Position numbers and translations under genes: made by a program
Notes under the pieces: generated by a model
What the model was told of the DNA's origin: nothing
Databases searched by the model: none
Seen by the model: only the letters and a program-made list of their open reading frames with translations
In this document: one piece after another, positions 54,292-64,000 of the stretch
How the letters are laid out: each line of letters opens with the position of its first letter
How positions within the stretch are numbered: the stretch's first letter is position 1
Assembly (NCBI GenBank): GCA_022826965.1
Contig: JAJDTU010000001.1
Span: 372,001 to 436,000, forward strand
DNA: 64,000 nt
From: Dehalococcoidia bacterium
Lineage (GTDB): Bacteria > Chloroflexota > Dehalococcoidia > Bin125
Reading direction: 5' to 3'

Positions 54292-55377
54292 CTACAGCGC
54301 TTCGGCGATCGCCGTTCCCAGGTCGGCGGTCGAGGCGCTGCCGCCAATATCCGGGGTGCGTGGAGCGCCGCTGCCGGGATCAAGGACCGTCTCGATGGCA
54401 TCAAGGATCGCGTCGTGCGCGCGCTGATGCCCGAGGAAGTCCAGCATCATCGCGCCGCACCAGATCTGGCCGATCGGATTGGCGATGCCTTGTCCAGCGA
54501 TATCCGGCGCCGAGCCGTGCACCGGCTCGAACAGCGAGGGGAAGGCCCCGTCGGGATTGAGATTGGCGCTCGGCGCGATCCCGATCGTGCCGGTGCAAGC
54601 AGGGCCGAGATCGCTGAGGATGTCGCCGAACAGGTTGCTGGCGACCACGACATCAAAGAAGTCGGGCCGCTGCACGAAATGCGCCGTCAGGATGTCAATG
54701 TGGAACTTGTCGACCTCAACTTCGGGATAGCTCGCCCCTATCGCCTCGACGCGCTCGTCCCAGAACGGCATTGTGATCGCGATGCCGTTCGATTTCGTCG
54801 CGCTGGTCAGGTGCCGCTTCGGTCGTGACTGCGCCAGATCGAAGGCGTACTTCAGCACACGGTCGACGCCGACGCGCGTCATCACCGTTTCCTGCATCAC
54901 CATTTCGCGGTCGGTGCCGGAGAAGATTCGGCCCCCGATGCTCGAGTACTCACCCTCCGTGTTCTCGCGCACGATGTACATGTCGATCTCGCCGGGCTCG
55001 CGCGGGCTGCCGTCGCGGCGCACGACCGGTGCGACGATGCCCGGCATCAGGCGCGCCGGTCGCAGGTTGATGTACTGGTCGAACTCGCGCCGAAACTGCA
55101 GCAGCGAGCCCCAGAGCGAGATGTGATCGGGAATCTTTTCGGGCCAGCCGACCGCCCCGAAGAAGATCGCATCGTACCCGCCGATTTGCTCCTGCCAGTC
55201 GTCGGGAAGCATCTGTCCATACTGCTCGTAGTAGTCCCATGACGCGAAGTCGAAGTGGTCGAAGGCCAGATCGACTTCGAACCGGGTCGCGGCTTCTTCG
55301 AGCACGCGAATCCCCTCGGGCACAACTTCCTTGCCGATCCCGTCGCCTGGAATCACGGCGATGCGTTGCGTACTCAT
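54292..55377 (-). CDS. Tartrate/D-malate dehydrogenase-like (isocitrate/isopropylmalate dehydrogenase family)
   Basis: 361 residues. IAVIPGDGIGKEV at the N-terminus, the FGAVGWPEKIPDHISLWG segment typical of tartrate dehydrogenases (TtuC/DmlA), YIVRENTEGEYSSIGG, and the metal/NAD region NLFGDILSDLGPA and EPVHGSAPDIAGQ. Oxidises and decarboxylates a hydroxy-dicarboxylate with NAD. Leucine biosynthesis (LeuB) is less likely because of the tartrate-type loop. AAAGGAT precedes the ATG. Confidence 0.88.
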   Translation of the reverse strand: MSTQRIAVIPGDGIGKEVVPEGIRVLEEAATRFEVDLAFDHFDFASWDYYEQYGQMLPDDWQEQIGGYDAIFFGAVGWPEKIPDHISLWGSLLQFRREFDQYINLRPARLMPGIVAPVVRRDGSPREPGEIDMYIVRENTEGEYSSIGGRIFSGTDREMVMQETVMTRVGVDRVLKYAFDLAQSRPKRHLTSATKSNGIAITMPFWDERVEAIGASYPEVEVDKFHIDILTAHFVQRPDFFDVVVASNLFGDILSDLGPACTGTIGIAPSANLNPDGAFPSLFEPVHGSAPDIAGQGIANPIGQIWCGAMMLDFLGHQRAHDAILDAIETVLDPGSGAPRTPDIGGSASTADLGTAIAEAL

Positions 55378-55463
55378 GGTCAGCGATCCTTTGTTCGCGC
55401 AGGCGCGGTCCCCAGCAAGCTACATTGCCCGCTAGGTTCGCAATGGCGGGAAGGAACGATGGC

Positions 55464-56153
55464 ATGGCGACATTCGTACTGATCCATGGGGCGTACCAGG
55501 GTGGTTGGATCTGGTCGCCAGTGGCGAATCGGCTGCGTGATGCCGGCCACCGTGTCTACGCGCCATCACTCGACGGCTGCGCCGAGCGTTCGTCCCAGGT
55601 GCGTCCGGGGATCACGACCGAGACGCAGGCCGACGAGATCGCCGAGTTGATGCGCTACGAGGACCTCGACAATGTCGTGCTGGTTGGCACCTCATCGGGA
55701 GGCATGGTGCTGTGCCGGGTCGCCGAGGTCGCCCGTGAACGGGTCCAGCGAATCGTCTTCGCCGACGCGCTGGCTCTCTATCACGGTGAGACGATCCGCG
55801 ACATCGTCCAAGGAGCGGTTGTCGATCCTGATGCCGTGTCGACCGGCCCGGCGCCGGGTTCGATGCTCGAATCGCTGAGTGCGAGCATGGATGCCGAGAT
55901 GGCTCAATGGGGCGCCGATCGGTTCGGGCAGCACCCGGCCGCAGCGTTCAACCGACCGGTCGAACTCGATTCGTTCTGGGAGCAACCCTGGGATGCGTGC
56001 GTGATCTGGTGCCGAGAAGCGCCGAATCCCGGAGAGGCTCACCAGCGCCGCTGCGCGGAGCATCTGAGTGCCCGCTGGCACGAACTCGACACCGGCCACT
56101 ACCCAATGCTAAGCACATCCGATGAGCTGACGAAGCTCATCCTTGAGGGCTGA
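55464..56153 (+). CDS. Alpha/beta hydrolase (esterase)
   Basis: About 229 residues. FVLIHGAYQGGWIW (oxyanion region), nucleophile elbow GTSSG (Ser77) and the His in DTGHYPML near the end; fits small salicylate-type or pyrethroid-like carboxylesterases. GGAAGGAACG precedes ATG 55464; ATG 55443 is also in frame. Stands between divergent tartrate-type dehydrogenase and the SDR at 56192. Substrate unknown. Confidence 0.86.
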   Translation: MATFVLIHGAYQGGWIWSPVANRLRDAGHRVYAPSLDGCAERSSQVRPGITTETQADEIAELMRYEDLDNVVLVGTSSGGMVLCRVAEVARERVQRIVFADALALYHGETIRDIVQGAVVDPDAVSTGPAPGSMLESLSASMDAEMAQWGADRFGQHPAAAFNRPVELDSFWEQPWDACVIWCREAPNPGEAHQRRCAEHLSARWHELDTGHYPMLSTSDELTKLILEG

Positions 56154-56191
56154 GGGCGAGCCCACCGCCGGGCTGCACGGAGAGAACCGAG

Positions 56192-56986
56192 GTGACTGAC
56201 ATGGCCGACAACTCATTCGCCAGATTTCGCGGCAAGGTGGCGCTGATCAGCGGGGCGGGCAACGGGATTTGTCGGGCCAGCGCCGAGATCATTGCCGCTG
56301 AGGGCGGGACGATCGCCGCCGTCGATAACAATCGGGAGGTACTTGATGACGCCATGCGGGCGTTCGCGACGGCCGGGGGCGGGGAGCACCAGGCCTATTG
56401 CGCCAATGCGCTCGCGCAGGAGGAGGTTGAGGATGTCGTCGCCGACGTCGTGGACCGCTACGGCAAGATCGACATCCTGATCAACGGAGTCGGCGGCTCG
56501 ACGATCATCGCCGACGCGGGCGCCACCGTTGACGAACTGACGATGGAGGAGTGGCAGCGCCTGCTCGACTTCAACCTCAGCGGCACGTTCCTGTCTTGCC
56601 ATGCTGTCGTTCCGCACATGACCCGGCAGGGCGGCGGCAAGATCGTCAACTTCGCCTCAATCGCCGGGCGCGGCAAGAGCGTCACGAGTTCGACCGCCTA
56701 CTCGGCGGCCAAGGGCGGCATCATCGCATTCACGACCAAGCTGGCATTGGAGGTGGGCCCGGCGGGCATCAACGTCAACGCGATTGCGCCATCGGCCACG
56801 CTGACCGAGCGCATTCGCAAGCACTGGGAACAACGTCCGCCCGAGCTGCAGGAGCAGGTGATCGCCGCGACCCCGCTGCGCCGCATCGCCGAGCCGGTTG
56901 ACCAGGCTAATGTCGTCTGCTTCCTCGCGTCCTCGCACGCCGATTTCGTCACCGGCGTCACGATCGACGTGACCGGCGGAGCCTAG
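56192..56986 (+). CDS. Short-chain dehydrogenase/reductase (SDR)
   Basis: 264 residues. Cofactor motif SGAGNGIC (last Gly of TGxxxGIG replaced by Cys), NGVGGS in place of NNAG, Ser in NFASIAGRG and catalytic YSAAK. Probably active. GTG 56192 or ATG 56201 are both possible starts. The stop overlaps that of the convergent LLM gene in CTAG. Confidence 0.88.
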   Translation: MTDMADNSFARFRGKVALISGAGNGICRASAEIIAAEGGTIAAVDNNREVLDDAMRAFATAGGGEHQAYCANALAQEEVEDVVADVVDRYGKIDILINGVGGSTIIADAGATVDELTMEEWQRLLDFNLSGTFLSCHAVVPHMTRQGGGKIVNFASIAGRGKSVTSSTAYSAAKGGIIAFTTKLALEVGPAGINVNAIAPSATLTERIRKHWEQRPPELQEQVIAATPLRRIAEPVDQANVVCFLASSHADFVTGVTIDVTGGA

Positions 56987-58029
56987 ATCTCGCCCGACTT
57001 CATCACCGGCAGCACTTCTTCTGCGAAGAGTTGCATTGAACTCTCTACCTGTTGCCGGGATAGGTCGCCGAACCAGAAGTTGGCGTTGAAGTGGTCGGTG
57101 CCCATGACCTCGCGGAGTTGCTTGATCTTGGCGATGCAGGTGTCAGGCGTACCCATTACGAAGTAGCGGTCGAGCAAGGCCTCGGCGCTCGGTTCCGTTT
57201 CCATCGGGATGGCGACCGCGTGGCCGTGCTCGACGCGCGCCAAGCCTTGCCGCAAGCTCAGGGTCACGCGCATGTTCCAGCGGGCCTGCTCGACGATGTC
57301 GGGCAGTTCGGACTCGTCGTGGGTGACGTAGACGGGGCGCTGCGTGCTCACCCGGACTGATTTGCGCTGTTCAGGATCAGTAATCGCGCGCTCGAACGTC
57401 TCGCGGAACTCTGCCAATCGCTCGATCGGTATGCCAAAACCGCCGGAGACGAGATTGAAGCCGCGTTCACCAATTGCCGCAATGGACTCGTGGCTCTGTC
57501 CAACCACCCAGAAGGGCGGATGCGGCCGCTGAATCGGCATCGGGAAGATGCTGGTCTCATCGAAGCAGAAGTACTTGCCTTCGTGTGAGAAGGGCTTTCC
57601 GGCAAACGCCTTGAGCAGGATGTCGACCGACTCGTCGAATCGTTCGCGACTCTCATCGAGCGTATGTCCGAGCCGATCGAACTCGTAGCGCTGATAGCCG
57701 CGCCCCAGCCCGACATCGAGTCGACCGCCACTGAGCACGTCGGCGGTGGCGATCTCCTCGGCGACGACCAGCGGATGATGCAACGGCAGCACCACGACGG
57801 CGGAACCGACGCGGATGCGCTCGGTGTGGGCGGCGAGATGCTGCGCGAACATCAGTGGACGCGAGAGGTAACCGTAGGTCGAGAAGTGATGCTCGGCGCA
57901 CCAGATGCTGTCAAAGCCGAGCCGATCCGCGGTCTGGGCCATCGCCGTCGCGCGGTCGAAGACCTCGGCGTGGTCTTGAGCTCCGGGAGACTGGAGCAGC
58001 AGGAACGTTCCGCAATCCATTGGCTGCAC
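56983..58029 (-). CDS. LLM-class flavin-dependent monooxygenase
   Basis: 348 residues: RLGFDSIWCAEHHFSTYGYLS, RVGSAVVVLPLHHPLVVAEE and GGRLDVGLGRGYQRYEFDRLG are LLM hallmarks. It uses reduced flavin from a partner. ORF begins GTG 58029, with ATG 58020 as alternative. It follows the HSL-family esterase gene (58071-59045) by 41 bases on the same strand, repeating the hydrolase-upstream/monooxygenase-downstream order at 1-2401. Confidence 0.9.
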   Translation of the reverse strand: MQPMDCGTFLLLQSPGAQDHAEVFDRATAMAQTADRLGFDSIWCAEHHFSTYGYLSRPLMFAQHLAAHTERIRVGSAVVVLPLHHPLVVAEEIATADVLSGGRLDVGLGRGYQRYEFDRLGHTLDESRERFDESVDILLKAFAGKPFSHEGKYFCFDETSIFPMPIQRPHPPFWVVGQSHESIAAIGERGFNLVSGGFGIPIERLAEFRETFERAITDPEQRKSVRVSTQRPVYVTHDESELPDIVEQARWNMRVTLSLRQGLARVEHGHAVAIPMETEPSAEALLDRYFVMGTPDTCIAKIKQLREVMGTDHFNANFWFGDLSRQQVESSMQLFAEEVLPVMKSGEI

Positions 58030-58070
58030 TTTCGCTGAAGATTCGCGGCCGGACGCTCGGGCGATCGAGA

Positions 58071-59045
58071 CTAGCGCGCACCGTTGAGGGCGCGGTCGAG
58101 CGCCGAGAGTTCGTCGCTGTTCCAGCGCCGGGAGATCTCTGCGTCGGGAACCATTGCATTTGAACCATGAAACGCGCCCGGGTAGACGTGCAACTCGGTC
58201 GGGACGTTGGCGTCTAGCAGTGCCTGCGCATACGCGACATCTTCGTCAAGGAAGAGATCGAGCGTACCAACGTTGATGTAGGCGGGCGGCAGCCCCGACA
58301 GGTCCGTTGCTCGCGCTGGGGCGGCGTATGGAGAGATGTCGTCCCCGCCGGCATGGCCCTCCAGGTAGGCACTCCAGCCGGCAAGGTTCGCGGCTCGATT
58401 CCAGACCCGCGCGTCGGTGATCGCGTGGCTGCTGCGCGTGATATTGCGATCGTCAAGCATCGGGAAGACCAACAGCTGGAAGCAGACGTCGACCTCGCCG
58501 CGGTCGCGCGCCACGAGCGCGAGACCGGCTGCCAGCCCGCCTCCCGCACTGCCGCCGCCGATCGCGATCCGGCTGCGATCGACTCCGAGTTCGTCGGCCG
58601 CCGACGCGAACCAGCGCAGGCCGGCGTAGCAATCCTCGATTGGCGCAGGGAACGGGTGCTCGGGCGCCAGGCGGTACTCGACCGAGGCAACCAGCACATT
58701 CAGTTGGTCGGCGACGCCGGCGCAATAGGGATCATTCATCGCGACATCGCCCAAGACCATGCCGCCGCCGTGGATCCAGTACAGGGCCGGCGCGTTGGCG
58801 GGCAGCGAGGCGGGGCGATAGGTGCGGACCATCACGTCTGGAGCGCCGTCCGGCCCGGGAGCCATGTGATCCTCGACGGTGACGCCGTCGGGCATGGGAG
58901 CGCCCAGCAGCGCCGCTCCGAGTTCTGCCAGGCCAGCGCGCGTGGCTGGAATGTCGGACAGATCCAGCCTCAGCGGCATGGCCTCGAGCACGGCCAGGTG
59001 GTCGGCGTCCAGGTAGGTCTCGATATCGAGAGCGGGAATGGCCAT
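58071..59045 (-). CDS. Alpha/beta hydrolase, HSL-family esterase
   Basis: 324 residues. HGGG (92-95), nucleophile motif GGSAG (Ser166), Asp in GTLDLFLDED and His in YPGAFHGSN complete the triad. Family IV carboxylesterase, cytoplasmic. GAGGAG precedes the ATG. Upstream partner of the LLM at 56983-58029. Confidence 0.9.
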   Translation of the reverse strand: MAIPALDIETYLDADHLAVLEAMPLRLDLSDIPATRAGLAELGAALLGAPMPDGVTVEDHMAPGPDGAPDVMVRTYRPASLPANAPALYWIHGGGMVLGDVAMNDPYCAGVADQLNVLVASVEYRLAPEHPFPAPIEDCYAGLRWFASAADELGVDRSRIAIGGGSAGGGLAAGLALVARDRGEVDVCFQLLVFPMLDDRNITRSSHAITDARVWNRAANLAGWSAYLEGHAGGDDISPYAAPARATDLSGLPPAYINVGTLDLFLDEDVAYAQALLDANVPTELHVYPGAFHGSNAMVPDAEISRRWNSDELSALDRALNGAR

Positions 59046-59143
59046 TGGATCGTCTCCTCGTTATCGCGCGTTGGTTCAACTGCAGACTACTGTTGGTGTG
59101 CGGCGCAGCAGCGATGGCCATCGTTCTCCTGGAGGAGGCTCAA

Positions 59144-59542
59144 ATGTCCGACATCACGGCTCACGCGAGAGCAGCGGTAGATGCATTCCAGGATGCGTTC
59201 AACGCGCAGGACCACGAACGGCTCGCGGCCGCGCTCAACTATCCGCACGTGCGGCTCTGGAGCGGCGCGTTCACGACGATCGAGACGCCGGAAGAGTTTG
59301 CCGAGATCAGCCGGCGCGGACAATCGCAACTCGAGGCCGAGGGTTGGGATCATACCGACACGGTGTCGATGGAAGTCGTGCAGCAGGGGCCTGACAAGGC
59401 GCACTGCGCGCTGGTCAATCATCGCTGCCGCGCCGACGGCACCGCGTATCACAAGTTCGACACGCTCTGGATCGTGACCAACCAGGACGGCCACTGGGGC
59501 GTCAAGTTCCGCTCCAGTTATCTCGGATCACCGTCGCACTAG
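59144..59542 (+). CDS. SnoaL-like / NTF2-fold small protein
   Basis: About 132 residues. Pattern of an NTF2-like cone (AVDAFQDAFNAQDHERLAAAL; TLWIVTNQDGHWGVKFRSS). Such proteins are polyketide cyclases, isomerases or binding proteins. The frame opens to 59045 but GGAGGAGG precedes ATG 59144, which gives the normal length. Convergent with the SDR at 59547, 4 bases apart. Confidence 0.8.
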   Translation: MSDITAHARAAVDAFQDAFNAQDHERLAAALNYPHVRLWSGAFTTIETPEEFAEISRRGQSQLEAEGWDHTDTVSMEVVQQGPDKAHCALVNHRCRADGTAYHKFDTLWIVTNQDGHWGVKFRSSYLGSPSH

Positions 59543-59546
59543 CGCG

Positions 59547-60422
59547 CTAACCAGCCCCCATCTGGTCTTTCATTTCGCCCTCGCGGCCGAGACCCGACCA
59601 GGTCGGCCGCTTCCGCGCGTCCAGCACTCCTCCTTCTGGAATTGGAGGCACGCCAATGGTATTGGCGGCCATCCAGCCTCCGTCGACCAGCAGGGTGTGT
59701 CCGGTGATGTAGCTGGCCATGTCGGAGAGCAGGAACACTACGGCGTTGGCGACCTCGTCTGTCGTACCCAGCCGCTTGAAGGGAATCAGGCCCTCCGCCG
59801 TTCGCTTGACCCGCTCGGGCGATGCCGGAATCCGGGGCGTCGCGATGCTGCCTGGAGCGACGGAGTTGACGCGAATGTTGTGTGGCGCGAGCTCGACGGC
59901 CATGCTGCGCACGAGGTTAATCAGGCCGGCCTTGGCCGCGCCATAGGACGCGTGATTGGGCGCCGACTGCGCCCCTTCGACCGATGAGATGCAGACGATG
60001 CTGCCCAGCGCACCGCGCGCGATGATCGATCGGGCGACCAACTGGGCGTTGACGAAGAAGTAGCGCAGGTTCATGTTGTGATCGCGGTCCCACTGCGCCA
60101 TCGACATCTCGGTGATCGGATTGAACGATCCCTGGCCGATGATCGTGATCAGCAGGTCGATTCCGCCGAGCTCCTGCTCGGCGCGTTCGAAGATGGTCGC
60201 CGCCTGCACATCGTCGAGCATGTCACCGACGAGGGAGACGGATGGCTGACCGAGCAGATCGACTTCGGCTGCGACGTGGATGGCCCGCTCAGCGTTGATA
60301 TCGGCGACCGCGACGCCGCAGCCTGCATTGGCGAGCAGCCGCGCCGTGCTCAGGCTGATGCCTTCGCCGCCCCCGACAATGAACGCCGACTTTCCTTCGA
60401 GTTGGAATGGTGAGTTATCCAC
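59547..60422 (-). CDS. Short-chain dehydrogenase/reductase (SDR), divergent cofactor motif
   Basis: 291 residues. VGGGEGIS replaces TGxxxGIG and TIIGQG replaces NNAG, but the catalytic SS...YGAAK and the C-terminal VDGGW are kept. It is likely an NAD(P) enzyme with altered cofactor contact. GTG start. Downstream of the LLM at 60488-61564 on the same strand, 65 bases apart, so possibly co-transcribed. Confidence 0.87.
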   Translation of the reverse strand: MDNSPFQLEGKSAFIVGGGEGISLSTARLLANAGCGVAVADINAERAIHVAAEVDLLGQPSVSLVGDMLDDVQAATIFERAEQELGGIDLLITIIGQGSFNPITEMSMAQWDRDHNMNLRYFFVNAQLVARSIIARGALGSIVCISSVEGAQSAPNHASYGAAKAGLINLVRSMAVELAPHNIRVNSVAPGSIATPRIPASPERVKRTAEGLIPFKRLGTTDEVANAVVFLLSDMASYITGHTLLVDGGWMAANTIGVPPIPEGGVLDARKRPTWSGLGREGEMKDQMGAG

Positions 60423-60487
60423 GAGGCGCCTCTCTGCTCTCGATCGCGCCGGTACTGTTCGCCGTTGCGGGCGCGTGTTGACTGCGC

Positions 60488-61564
60488 TCAGTTTCTCAGC
60501 AGCGGCAACACTTCATCAGTGAACCGAGCTGCGGATGCTTCGGCCTCGGCGGTCGGCCTGACGAAGTCTGGCCCGACAATGCCGAACTTCGTCACTCCAA
60601 GTTGGGCGAGTTCCGCCAACTTCTCGGCGCAGTAGTCCGCCGGGCCGACGATCGCATAGCCGTCCATGAAATCATCCGTAAGCGCGGTGATCTGGTGGCC
60701 GCCTTCGCGCCCGTGCAGATTCATGTCATAGCGATTGTGTAGCTCGTGGAAGACCTCGTCCTGATTCTCGTCCGTCGGCCCCGCCACTTCGCCGTACATG
60801 GCCGAGAAGCGCGCGAACAGCCCAGTCGAGGGACGGCCGAGTTCGCGGCCCATGGCCGGATCGTCGTCGCAGACGACATTGACGTAGGCACCAAGGCTGA
60901 GCGCATCGGGGTCGGTTCCGGCTTCTCTGGCTGCCGCTCGCGCGGTCTCGATGCCCCAGGAGACCCGCCTGGGATCGGCCCCGACGGCCAGCATCACTCG
61001 ATCGGCCTGACGGGCAGCAATGCCGATGACGCGAGGACCGGTGGCCGCGACCTCGACCGGCACTTTTGGCTCGTCCACGCCGTCATCGACCCAACGGATG
61101 GCGCTGGTCTCCGGCGCGCGCGCCAGACTGAGACGCTCCACCGGCGGCGCCGCCTCATCGGGGATGCCGGAGCCGTCGAGGGGTATGCCGCCGCCGGAGA
61201 GATAGGTCTGGAGGTGCTCGAGGTACGTTTCGAACCAGCCGAGGCGCGCCGGCGCGCGGCCCAGGTGTGCGAGCGCGCTATCTCCGCGTCCGATGCCGAG
61301 CACCATCCGGCCTTGCGACAGGCGCTGGACGGCAAACGCGGACGTCGCGGCCACCGAGGCGTGCCGGGTGACGGGGTTGGTAACTGAGGTCGAGAGCCCC
61401 AACCGGTCGGTGACGGTTGCCGCAAGCGCGAGGCAGAGGTACGGGTCGCCGGTCAGGCTCTGGGAGTCTCCCAGACCGATGCCGTCCCAGCCCTGCGCTT
61501 CCGAGCGCCGCGCGAAGTCTGCGATACCGGTCGGCTCGGAAACACGCCAGTTCCAGAATTCCAT
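60488..61564 (-). CDS. LLM-class flavin-dependent monooxygenase (possibly F420-type)
   Basis: 358 residues: AQGWDGIGLGDSQSLTGDPY, RLGLSTSVTNPVTRHASVAA, LGIGRGDSALAHLGR are seen. The short form with this early segment resembles F420-dependent LLM reductases/oxygenases more than FMN luciferases, but this is not certain. GGGAGAG before ATG. The SDR at 59547 follows it. Confidence 0.88.
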   Translation of the reverse strand: MEFWNWRVSEPTGIADFARRSEAQGWDGIGLGDSQSLTGDPYLCLALAATVTDRLGLSTSVTNPVTRHASVAATSAFAVQRLSQGRMVLGIGRGDSALAHLGRAPARLGWFETYLEHLQTYLSGGGIPLDGSGIPDEAAPPVERLSLARAPETSAIRWVDDGVDEPKVPVEVAATGPRVIGIAARQADRVMLAVGADPRRVSWGIETARAAAREAGTDPDALSLGAYVNVVCDDDPAMGRELGRPSTGLFARFSAMYGEVAGPTDENQDEVFHELHNRYDMNLHGREGGHQITALTDDFMDGYAIVGPADYCAEKLAELAQLGVTKFGIVGPDFVRPTAEAEASAARFTDEVLPLLRN

Positions 61565-61937
61565 GTGCGCAGCTCTCCCTATCTTGAGCTTCCCTCATCG
61601 GCGGACGGTCGATTGCAGCGTAGCGTCGATGCTCACGATCGATGACCGCCCAGGGGGGGTGCGCACGCTGATCACGGATTGCCATCGAGCGGAAGCAGGC
61701 AGGGTAGCCTCTGATATGTTGCCCGCTGACCGCACAGCTTCAGACAACAGACCAGTCGAAGTGAGCGGCCACTCGCTATCGAATCAGGGGTAGCGAACCC
61801 TGGATCACGTGCAGAGTTCATAGAGCGCGTCCCCTCGGTGCAGCGAGCGGATGGCTTCAGGTCTGGAAGAGTATTGCCGAGGTAGATGGGGGGCCCGCTG
61901 CCGAAGCGGGTCGCGATTCTCAAGCTCGACAGCCTTC
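61565..61937. other. Intergenic region before the NCS2 permease
   Basis: 373 bases with no supportable gene. A small hairpin CCCGCT-GCCGA-AGCGGG lies at 61894-61910, 27 bases before the permease ATG. The tract also has a G-run near 61650. No promoter could be picked with confidence. Confidence 0.4.
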
Positions 61938-63722
61938 ATGGCGCCGTCTGAGACGAGCGCACGTGCGATTGGCTCACCATTGACCGCCAGGAGTGCCGAC
62001 CAGCCGATTCAGTACGAGCCGGAAGAGGCTTGCCCACCGATTGTTGCGTTGATCGTCGGTTTCCAGGGGGCTGCGCTCGTCCTCGCGCCGACAGTGCTCA
62101 ATGTGGCGATCGGCTTTCGCGCCGCAGGTCTCGACGACACCTGGCTGGTCTGGGGCGTCTTCGCCGGCATGTTGACCTGTGCGGTGATGACGGCGCTGCA
62201 GGTCTTCCGATTTGGCAGGTTCGGCGCCGGCCACATCGTGCTCACCTGGTCGTCGGCCATCTTTCTCGCCATCCTGGCAACGACGGTCGACGCTGTCGGT
62301 CCAGAGACGTTCGCAAGCCTGCTGGTGATTTGCAGCCTCGTTCAGATCGCACTGGCGAGGTGGCTGCCCACGCTGCGGCGCGTTATCACCCCGGTCGTCT
62401 CCGGCACGGTCACGATGTTAATCGCCGTCAGCGTCTTGCCGATTGCATTCGACACCGTCCAGCGTGTGCCCTCCGACGCGCCGGTGAGCGCCGGTCCCAT
62501 CATCGCTGTCCTGACCCTGTTGACCTCTGTGGTGGTGACACTGCGGGTCGGCGGTCGATGGCGGCTGATTGCGCCGTTGATCAGCATCGCGGTTGGATGT
62601 GCGGTCGCAGCCGCATTCGGCGTGATCGAAGGGGACAGAATTGCCAACGCCGGCTGGTTCGGCATTCCAGAGCTGCCCGACCTCAGCTTCGACCTCTCGC
62701 CGGGCGAGGAGTTCTGGGCGCTGTTGCCTACATTCGCGATTCTCACCCTGGTGTTCACGCTCAAGACAGTGAGCGACGGAATCGTGATCCAGCAGAGTTC
62801 CCGGCGGCGTCCGCGCGCGATCGACTTCCGTCAGATCCAGGGTCTGGTCAGCGTCAGCGGGATCGGCATGTTGCTTGCCGGCCTCAGCACAACCCTGCCT
62901 CCGGCGTCCAACGCCTCGTACAGCCACACGCTGGTCACGCTCACAGGCGTTGCCGCGCGTCGGGTCGGCCTCGGCGTGGCGTTGATCACCGTCGTGCTGG
63001 CGTTCTTCTCCAAGTTCGCTGCCCTGTTGCTCTCGGTCCCCGGGCCTGTGCTAGGAGCCTTCCTGATGTTCGCGATGGGCATGCTCTTCGTCAGCGGCTG
63101 GCAGACCATCATGCGCGACGGACTCGATCCTCGGCGCGTGCTCGTGGTGGCGCTCGCAAGTGCATTGGGCTTGGGGCTGCACGGCCACCCGATTATGAGC
63201 GACCTGTTTGGCGATGAGATAGGCGGACTGATCGGAAACGGTGTCACCATTGGCGCCATCGTCGCGATCGTCATGACGCTGCTACTGGAAGCGATAGGTT
63301 CGCGGCGCTCGCGGCTCGAGGTGACCCTCGACATGGCCTCGCTGCCGGCGATCGATGAGTTTCTTTCCGCCCTGGCGTCCAGGCTGAAATGGGATGAGCC
63401 GTCGACGCTGCGGTTACGGTCGGCCGGCGAGGAGACACTCGCCACCCTGCTCGTCCAGGACGAGGCCGACCCGGATGATTCGGACCAGCCTCGCCTGGTA
63501 GTGATCGCCCGGCCGCAGTCGGTGATGGTCGAGCTGGAGTTCGTCGCTACGACGCGCCAGGAGAACATTGAGGATCAGCTTGCCTATCTGACGGACGAAG
63601 CGCCGGTGCCGACGGCAGATGATCTGTCGTTGCGCTTGCTCTGGTACCACGCATCCGCTGTGCGGCACCAGAAGTTCCACGGCGTCGACATCGTGACAGT
63701 GCAGGTAGAGGGCAACGCCTGA
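61938..63722 (+). CDS. NCS2/xanthine-uracil-type permease fused to a C-terminal anti-sigma/HATPase-like domain
   Basis: About 594 residues. Roughly the first 450 (to about 63300) carry 12 or so membrane segments with an NCS2-type pattern (PTVLNVAIGF; GHIVLTWSSAIFLA; GLSTTLPPASNASYSHTLVTLTGVAARRVG; SVPGPVLGAFLMFAMGML). The last ~135 residues (from 63310) are soluble. They resemble RsbW-type ATPase folds: an N-box-like RSAGEETLATLL, a beta segment RLVVIARPQ, and a terminal SLRLLWYHASAVRHQKFHGV. ATG 61938 is chosen from the protein; ATG 61851 is also in frame and no clear ribosome site is seen. Confidence 0.82.
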   Translation: MAPSETSARAIGSPLTARSADQPIQYEPEEACPPIVALIVGFQGAALVLAPTVLNVAIGFRAAGLDDTWLVWGVFAGMLTCAVMTALQVFRFGRFGAGHIVLTWSSAIFLAILATTVDAVGPETFASLLVICSLVQIALARWLPTLRRVITPVVSGTVTMLIAVSVLPIAFDTVQRVPSDAPVSAGPIIAVLTLLTSVVVTLRVGGRWRLIAPLISIAVGCAVAAAFGVIEGDRIANAGWFGIPELPDLSFDLSPGEEFWALLPTFAILTLVFTLKTVSDGIVIQQSSRRRPRAIDFRQIQGLVSVSGIGMLLAGLSTTLPPASNASYSHTLVTLTGVAARRVGLGVALITVVLAFFSKFAALLLSVPGPVLGAFLMFAMGMLFVSGWQTIMRDGLDPRRVLVVALASALGLGLHGHPIMSDLFGDEIGGLIGNGVTIGAIVAIVMTLLLEAIGSRRSRLEVTLDMASLPAIDEFLSALASRLKWDEPSTLRLRSAGEETLATLLVQDEADPDDSDQPRLVVIARPQSVMVELEFVATTRQENIEDQLAYLTDEAPVPTADDLSLRLLWYHASAVRHQKFHGVDIVTVQVEGNA

Positions 63723-63929: not shown

Positions 63930-64000
63930 GTGAATGCCGGGATGAGAGGTGTCGCTCGGGCTCCGGCCTCATGTGGTGAGTTGGCCCAGGGCCTGCTTGG
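63930..64000 (+). CDS. GHMP kinase N-terminus, PduX (L-threonine kinase)-like, cut by window edge
   Basis: Frame open from GTG 63930 (or ATG 63942) to the end. The visible start reads NAGMRGVARAPASCGELAQG, and APASCGELxQG is the N-terminal signature of PduX-type GHMP kinases, which make L-threonine phosphate for cobalamin side-chain synthesis or act on similar small alcohols. Only about 23 codons are seen, so the rest of the protein and its role cannot be judged. Confidence 0.6.
   Translation, partial: MNAGMRGVARAPASCGELAQGLL

Follow-up and report, generated by a model that had tools for sequence, protein, structure and literature searches.

The locus and its permease gene

The window, i.e. 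the whole 64,000-nucleotide stretch of DNA that was analysed, carries, at 61851–63722 on the forward strand, one open frame that runs without internal stop. The frame encodes 623 amino acids from its first ATG (61851) and 594 from the ATG at 61938. Because homologues begin near window residue 14–15, the TTG at 61980 is a possible alternative start of the gene, and the exact start is unsure. The gene has the following features:

61938..63722, + strand: NCS2/SLC23 permease with a predicted C-terminal RsbW-fold domain, 594 aa (start alternatives TTG 61980 and ATG 61851)
61980..63293, + strand: transmembrane NCS2 domain, residues ~15–452, with PF00860 on residues 38–415
62763..62765, + strand: Lys276, in the place of the substrate-binding Glu356 of UapA (TMS8)
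62919..62930, + strand: Tyr328-Ser-His-Thr331, which replaces Gln-Asn-X-Gly of the NAT signature (TMS10)
63300..63719, + strand: C-terminal domain of predicted RsbW/SpoIIAB fold, ~140 aa, residues 455–594
63429..63446, + strand: degenerate N-box E498-E499-T-L-A-T503, with Glu kept and Asn replaced by Thr
63621..63632, + strand: degenerate G2 box D562-L-S-L, for G-L-G-L, as placed by the joint alignment

The permease gene stands alone. A gene for a luciferase-like oxidoreductase lies before it on the opposite strand (60488–61564), and a GHMP-kinase-like gene starts near 63930 on the same strand as the permease. The upstream part of the window (55239–61564) holds two luciferase-like oxidoreductases, two short-chain dehydrogenases, and two alpha/beta-hydrolases, of which the nearest oxidoreductase is confirmed by Pfam and the others are named by eye.

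Residues 38–415 match the Xan_ur_permease family (PF00860) with 116.5 bits against a cut-off of 27 (E = 1.5e-33), and the protein falls below the cut-offs of the NCBIfam models ncs2 (140.2 of 291.8) and pbuX (168.7 of 414.15). No STAS domain is matched in the window protein, the tail of which models as an RsbW fold, and its other weak Pfam matches, including Clostridium_P47 (0.034), were dismissed as chance. Pfam and PDB sequence matches identify the same membrane domain in the nucleobase and ascorbate transporters UapA, UraA, and SVCT1 (NCS2/NAT, SLC23). These solved members align to the membrane part of the window protein only, and none of them is known to carry such a tail.

Occurrence of the fusion and the permease tree

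The preliminary description of this DNA had reported an NCS2-type permease with a C-terminal fusion. This is confirmed, as the same in-frame fusion is found in 12 of 12 relatives of the window gene (71–84% identity), all located on separate contigs of MAGs titled Chloroflexi, Chloroflexota, Dehalococcoidia, or "bacterium". The window genome itself encodes three NCS2 permeases and all are tailed, i.e. the window copy, P0001 (41% identical), and P0002 (27%). Because the fusion is in frame in every relative, it is real and reflects neither a frameshift nor an assembly join. An artefact that merged two genes in either way is also refuted by the three paralogues and by four proteobacterial plasmid genes; no point speaks in its favour, and we regard its probability as practically nil.

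The plasmid-borne tailed permeases are those of Azospirillum thermophilum (WP_109333753, recorded as cell culture), Candidatus Thiodictyon syntrophicum (two copies), and Pseudoroseomonas cervicalis, and outside Chloroflexota the architecture is known from plasmids only. These genes are annotated as "Solute carrier family 23 protein", and the annotation is silent on the tail. They share the architecture of the window protein, with tails that are only distantly alike the window tail.

A profile of the tail was searched in 400 Chloroflexota genomes, and the best 10 candidates per genome were scored. With this scoring, 38 of the 400 genomes have matches at 1e-5. A total of 134 of 144 rows reach E ≤ 1e-20, in 33 genomes that represent five family codes (f1, f37, f48, f51, and f86). 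Frames of at least 500 aa hold 127 of these 134 strong matches (best 10 candidates per genome), and the remaining seven are six frames truncated at a contig edge plus one (G060) whose permease part is interrupted by an in-frame stop. No free-standing tail is seen among the 134 strong matches from the best 10 candidates of each of the 400 genomes. One further partial match is found at 9e-11, along with nine weak matches (2e-7 to 1e-5) that include frames of 143 aa and 684–686 aa resembling ordinary RsbW and PP2C-RsbW proteins. PF00860 matches were listed for 14 of the 33 genomes, and 50 of these 52 matches sit in frames no shorter than 573 aa. The two shorter frames are a window-type gene cut by a contig end and a 467-aa distant carrier with no room for a tail.

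We found no description of a permease-RsbW architecture in the literature searched, which held few subscription papers and no domain-architecture list, and an earlier notice is possible. Two loci have arrangements of their own. In L007 (3629–7740), two window-type tailed permeases stand in tandem; the frame of the upstream copy matches from window residue 143 and is preceded by a 135-aa piece of the same family, so its first part seemingly lies in another frame. This partial frame (L007 3629–5692) is excluded from the tree and from the counts of residues in 53 proteins given below. On a plasmid of Rubrobacter radiotolerans (L135 478–2361), an NCS2 permease annotated as uraD is apparently fused at its C-terminus to a urate-pathway decarboxylase.

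After removal of the tail, 42 permease domains were placed in a maximum-likelihood tree. The 27 tailed permeases, including the four proteobacterial plasmid proteins, fall on one side of a 99/99 branch, opposite 15 permeases that lack this tail. These 15 rows are a small, hand-picked sample of Chloroflexota and of plasmids from other phyla, and the tailed rows were collected with tailed queries; the tree is read as unrooted. Within the tailed side, the Chloroflexota proteins group together (100/98). The Azospirillum protein sits on a long branch, and for some rows the program issued warnings about long branches or unusual composition. A single gain of the tail is the simplest reading of this topology, and there may have been later losses of the tail, or there may be unsampled untailed members inside the branch. 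Judged by its position in the tree, the window protein is a member of a distinct tail-bearing branch of NCS2/SLC23.

Fold, nucleotide site, and constraint of the tail

The preliminary description had likened the tail to RsbW and pointed to a profile search against HATPase_c_2. Taken alone, the window tail (~140 residues) has no match in Pfam or NCBIfam and is also below the cut-off of PF13581, so this search fails for the window protein and succeeds for some of the related tails: HATPase_c_2 is matched by 8 of 16 diverse tails (E up to 1; best 3e-9), and other families are matched by at most one tail each. For example, the paralogue P0002 matches HATPase_c_2 through its tail with 33.4 bits against a cut-off of 27.4 (5.2e-8).

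Structure prediction for the window tail, with 14 close sequences as input, yields a model with pLDDT 62 and pTM 0.59 and the element order b-a-a-b-b-a-a-b-b. This is the only one of five models that folded, the remaining four having pLDDT 35–40, and a model of the full-length protein (pLDDT 35) was left unused. The top 18 PDB matches of the tail model in Foldseek (E < 1e-3) are all RsbW, SpoIIAB, or UsfX, with a best value of 5.5e-7. VIA-align aligns the model with Bacillus subtilis RsbW over 110 residues (Z = 14.6, rmsd 2.0), and beyond the anti-sigma set Z is 10.8 or less. The predicted structure is thus in line with the likeness to RsbW proposed earlier, and neither of the outcomes named at that time as contrary to the proposal, i.e. 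a fold that is not HATPase-like or a frameshift, is what we find.

Three types of tails are distinguished in the profile comparisons, namely type I (the window protein, P0001, and the like), type II (P0002 and the like in the same genus), and type III (seven proteins, L115–L121). The reference is a true RsbW set of 26 of 32 HATPase_c_2 matches from Chloroflexota; the six excluded matches comprise four on shortened loci and two without a locus. In hhalign, 45 type I tails score 38.2 against true RsbW (E = 6e-6), a score reached neither by any of 100 column shuffles (at most 24.8) nor by the reversed alignment (18.1). Scores are 67.3 for type II tails (shuffles ≤19.9) and 50.2 for the four proteobacterial tails (shuffles ≤23.5). 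Type III tails match a home-built RsbW profile at 2e-7 to 1.6e-3, E-values that are generous given a set of 23 sequences. When the tail profile is compared with PDB sequences, RsbW is found at E 0.3, behind an unrelated methyltransferase at 0.24.

The proteobacterial tails are 15–20% identical to the window tail, and two of the four match HATPase_c_2 weakly (0.0098 and 0.021). Direct profile comparison of these four tails gives no signal with type I (probability 0.5%) or with type II (probability 3.9%). Proteobacterial and type I tails each match true RsbW, and the permease tree unites both. On the evidence of the predicted structure and the profiles, the tail of the window protein is a GHKL fold of the RsbW/SpoIIAB type.

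With RsbW and SpoIIAB (HATPase_c_2, PF13581), the tail shares its predicted fold, element order, N-box Glu, and profile similarity. Unlike these proteins, it is joined to a permease, has lost the ATP site, and has no free-standing copy among the strong matches. The site was compared in a joint alignment of 62 tails (47 type I, 4 type II, 7 type III, and 4 proteobacterial) with the 26 true RsbW domains. The N-box Asn, which has a role in Mg binding, is present in 26/26 true RsbW domains vs 1/62 tails, and the G1 Asp and the second G2 Gly are each present in 26/26 vs 4/62, all four being type II; many of the aligned tails are closely related, and these counts are not independent events. By contrast, the N-box Glu is retained in 62/62 tails, and the N-box of the window tail is partly degenerate, as had been recognized before. 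Type II and proteobacterial tails may bind nucleotides weakly, because the G1 Asp and one G2 Gly survive in the four type II tails, and the G1 Gly in the four proteobacterial ones.

In one reading, the tail is an active serine kinase of the RsbW type, or an ATP sensor, and phosphorylates a STAS protein depending on the state of the transporter. The RsbW fold and the invariant N-box Glu agree with it, and the absence of the N-box Asn from 61, and of the G1 Asp and second G2 Gly from 58, of the 62 tails argues against it. Because the ATP motifs are lost, we reject kinase function as the main reading. In the window protein, the N-box Asn, G1 Asp, and G2 Gly are all substituted, and the serine-kinase-like role offered in the preliminary description is left unsupported. 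As such, the tail is unlikely to act as an enzyme.

Degenerate nucleotide-binding motifs would also be expected of a vestigial remnant, with a function limited to expression or stability. We consider this highly improbable, given that the tail dN/dS is 0.06–0.15 in seven pairs (dS is at least 0.8, which makes the ratios rough) and that amino-acid identity in the tail equals or exceeds that of the permease in 6/7 relatives, the exception being L004. Also against a remnant, window-like tails share a conserved motif of the type VRHQKYHGxDIVTV, and strong matches to the tail profile sit in fused frames or their fragments. Judged from these alignments, the tail has lost its ATP site yet is under strong purifying selection.

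Substrate site, gene context, and role of the tail

In UapA, xanthine is bound via Glu356 and Gln408, among others (PMC4837479). In a HMMER alignment, these residues correspond to Lys276 and Tyr328 of the window protein. The position of Gln408 holds Gln or Glu in none of 53 tailed proteins, and the Asn that follows it is found in 2/53. At the position of Glu356, the same proteins have Lys (20), Arg (1), Glu (28), and Asp or Asn (4). The change of charge at this site is therefore not common to the whole tailed branch, 28/53 having Glu.

Canonical NATs are defined by a three-motif criterion that includes the TMS10 signature Q/E/P-N-X-G-X4-T-G/R/K (PMC5972032); the same paper notes that prokaryotes have diverged NAT branches without an assigned function. 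In the window protein, the Gln-His of TMS1 is replaced by Gln43-Gly44, TMS8 reads Lys276-Thr-Val-Ser-Asp280 and does not present the canonical motif, and TMS10 reads Y-S-H-T-L-V-T-L-T-G, where the closing T-G alone remains of the signature. Untailed rows of the tree that are of NAT type have Gln-His in TMS1 (12/12), Glu in TMS8 (12/12), and Gln or Glu in TMS10 (11/12); the untailed rows L122, L124, and L129, with Asp in TMS8, are a separate type and were excluded from these counts. With all three motifs absent from its sequence, the window protein falls outside the canonical NATs by that criterion. The tailed branch marks a set of SLC23/NCS2-annotated proteins with substrate residues that mismatch nucleobases, and a nucleobase role should therefore not be assumed for this set. 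More weakly, we infer that branches with Lys or Arg at the Glu356 position would carry a small organic anion, not an uncharged nucleobase.

Gene context was compared among 34 clustered loci, where no gene cluster besides the permease is found in more than 7. With no widely shared neighbour, context therefore names neither a substrate nor a partner. On the A. thermophilum plasmid (L063 6618–10575), genes for 3-oxoacid CoA-transferase A/B and 3-hydroxybutyrate dehydrogenase immediately precede the tailed SLC23 gene in the same orientation, a single case that suggests a link to ketone bodies or organic acids.

Linked anti-anti-sigma genes, which the preliminary description had proposed to search for, are not conserved. 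Specifically, a profile made from four STAS domains finds a free STAS gene in 1/32 neighbourhoods of 3–20 kb, that of Thiodictyon, and a STAS domain within a likely SulP protein in two further neighbourhoods of the 32. In L072 and L073, a tailed permease shares its 20-kb region with a protein that ends in a STAS domain; this protein is a 544-aa frame in L072, likely a SulP by eye, and is cut at the edge in L073. In Thiodictyon, two tailed permeases have the STAS gene and a SpoIIE phosphatase gene no more than about 8 kb away. In this part of the plasmid (L064 2479–3371 and 5713–9722), the two permeases are on opposite strands, and a short "hypothetical" gene located 33 bp from the STAS gene resembles the last membrane helix plus the tail of such a permease.

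The Thiodictyon arrangement, and the presence of four STAS-domain proteins in the window genome, would fit a live kinase. Against it stand the rarity of free STAS genes in the neighbourhoods and the fact that the one strong ordinary RsbW domain of the window genome (6.1e-23) is in a separate protein, the end of a PP2C-phosphatase-like protein encoded on another contig beside its own STAS gene. With the decayed ATP motifs added, a live kinase is very unlikely. This PP2C-RsbW protein and the STAS gene directly after it form a compact partner-switching module (G000 C12:128773–129528; L046, L060).

A second possibility, in line with the control through a partner-binding domain that the preliminary description had also named, is that the tail binds a partner passively. 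The protein would then be a transceptor, in which the tail tethers a STAS protein or a sigma factor to the membrane until loading or movement of the carrier sets this partner free. Partners of both kinds are known for RsbW and SpoIIAB folds, and complexes of RsbW-RsbV and SpoIIAB-sigma F are among the PDB matches of the tail. Residues of the nucleobase site are gone while the whole protein is conserved, and a STAS gene is close to the Thiodictyon copies. However, the branch has neither a branch-wide neighbour gene nor a conserved STAS neighbour, and a purely structural role fits the data equally. We see this as a possible but rather doubtful reading.

In the reading that we find most probable, the window protein represents a diverged SLC23 branch whose RsbW-fold domain is non-catalytic, is regulatory or dimerizing, and mirrors the STAS domain of SLC26. 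The tail thus probably contributes to the control or the assembly of the transporter. It would be a cytosolic pseudo-kinase that acts by protein contact and most likely pairs with the tail of a second protomer, since SLC23 carriers and RsbW-type proteins both self-associate. RsbW-type proteins form dimers. A homodimerization role is described for UapA (PMC4837479), and a tetramer core for the RsbV-RsbW complex (PMC7340262). We thus favour contact of the tail with its own copy in a dimer over a STAS or sigma partner, a preference that we hold with fair but incomplete confidence. Such pairing would set how the carrier assembles or gates, in analogy to the regulatory STAS domain of SLC26.

SLC26 proteins have a related 7+7 membrane fold and a regulatory STAS domain (PMC6497670). 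SLC26/SulP carriers bear the anti-anti-sigma (STAS) half of the partner pair, and the tailed SLC23 branch would bear the anti-sigma (RsbW) half, a mirror image that is a comparison made in the present analysis. In a more far-reaching version, this SLC23 branch gained the anti-sigma half of the SpoIIAA/SpoIIAB pair, probably once, lost nucleobase recognition, and became a membrane receptor or transceptor. Its pseudo-RsbW tail would signal by recruiting STAS partners, which may be the STAS domains of SLC26 carriers or free STAS proteins of the same cell; we rate this version as improbable. Under the favoured reading of a non-catalytic regulatory or dimerizing tail, an SLC23 branch with the fold of a STAS partner, its enzyme site erased and its sequence strongly constrained, would represent a natural experiment on the cytosolic control of carriers.

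A small gene of about 100–130 aa adjoins the tailed permease in four loci (L005 5626–5934, L010, L013, and L067 8728–9021), and the one member tested, that of L067, is a DUF1330 protein.
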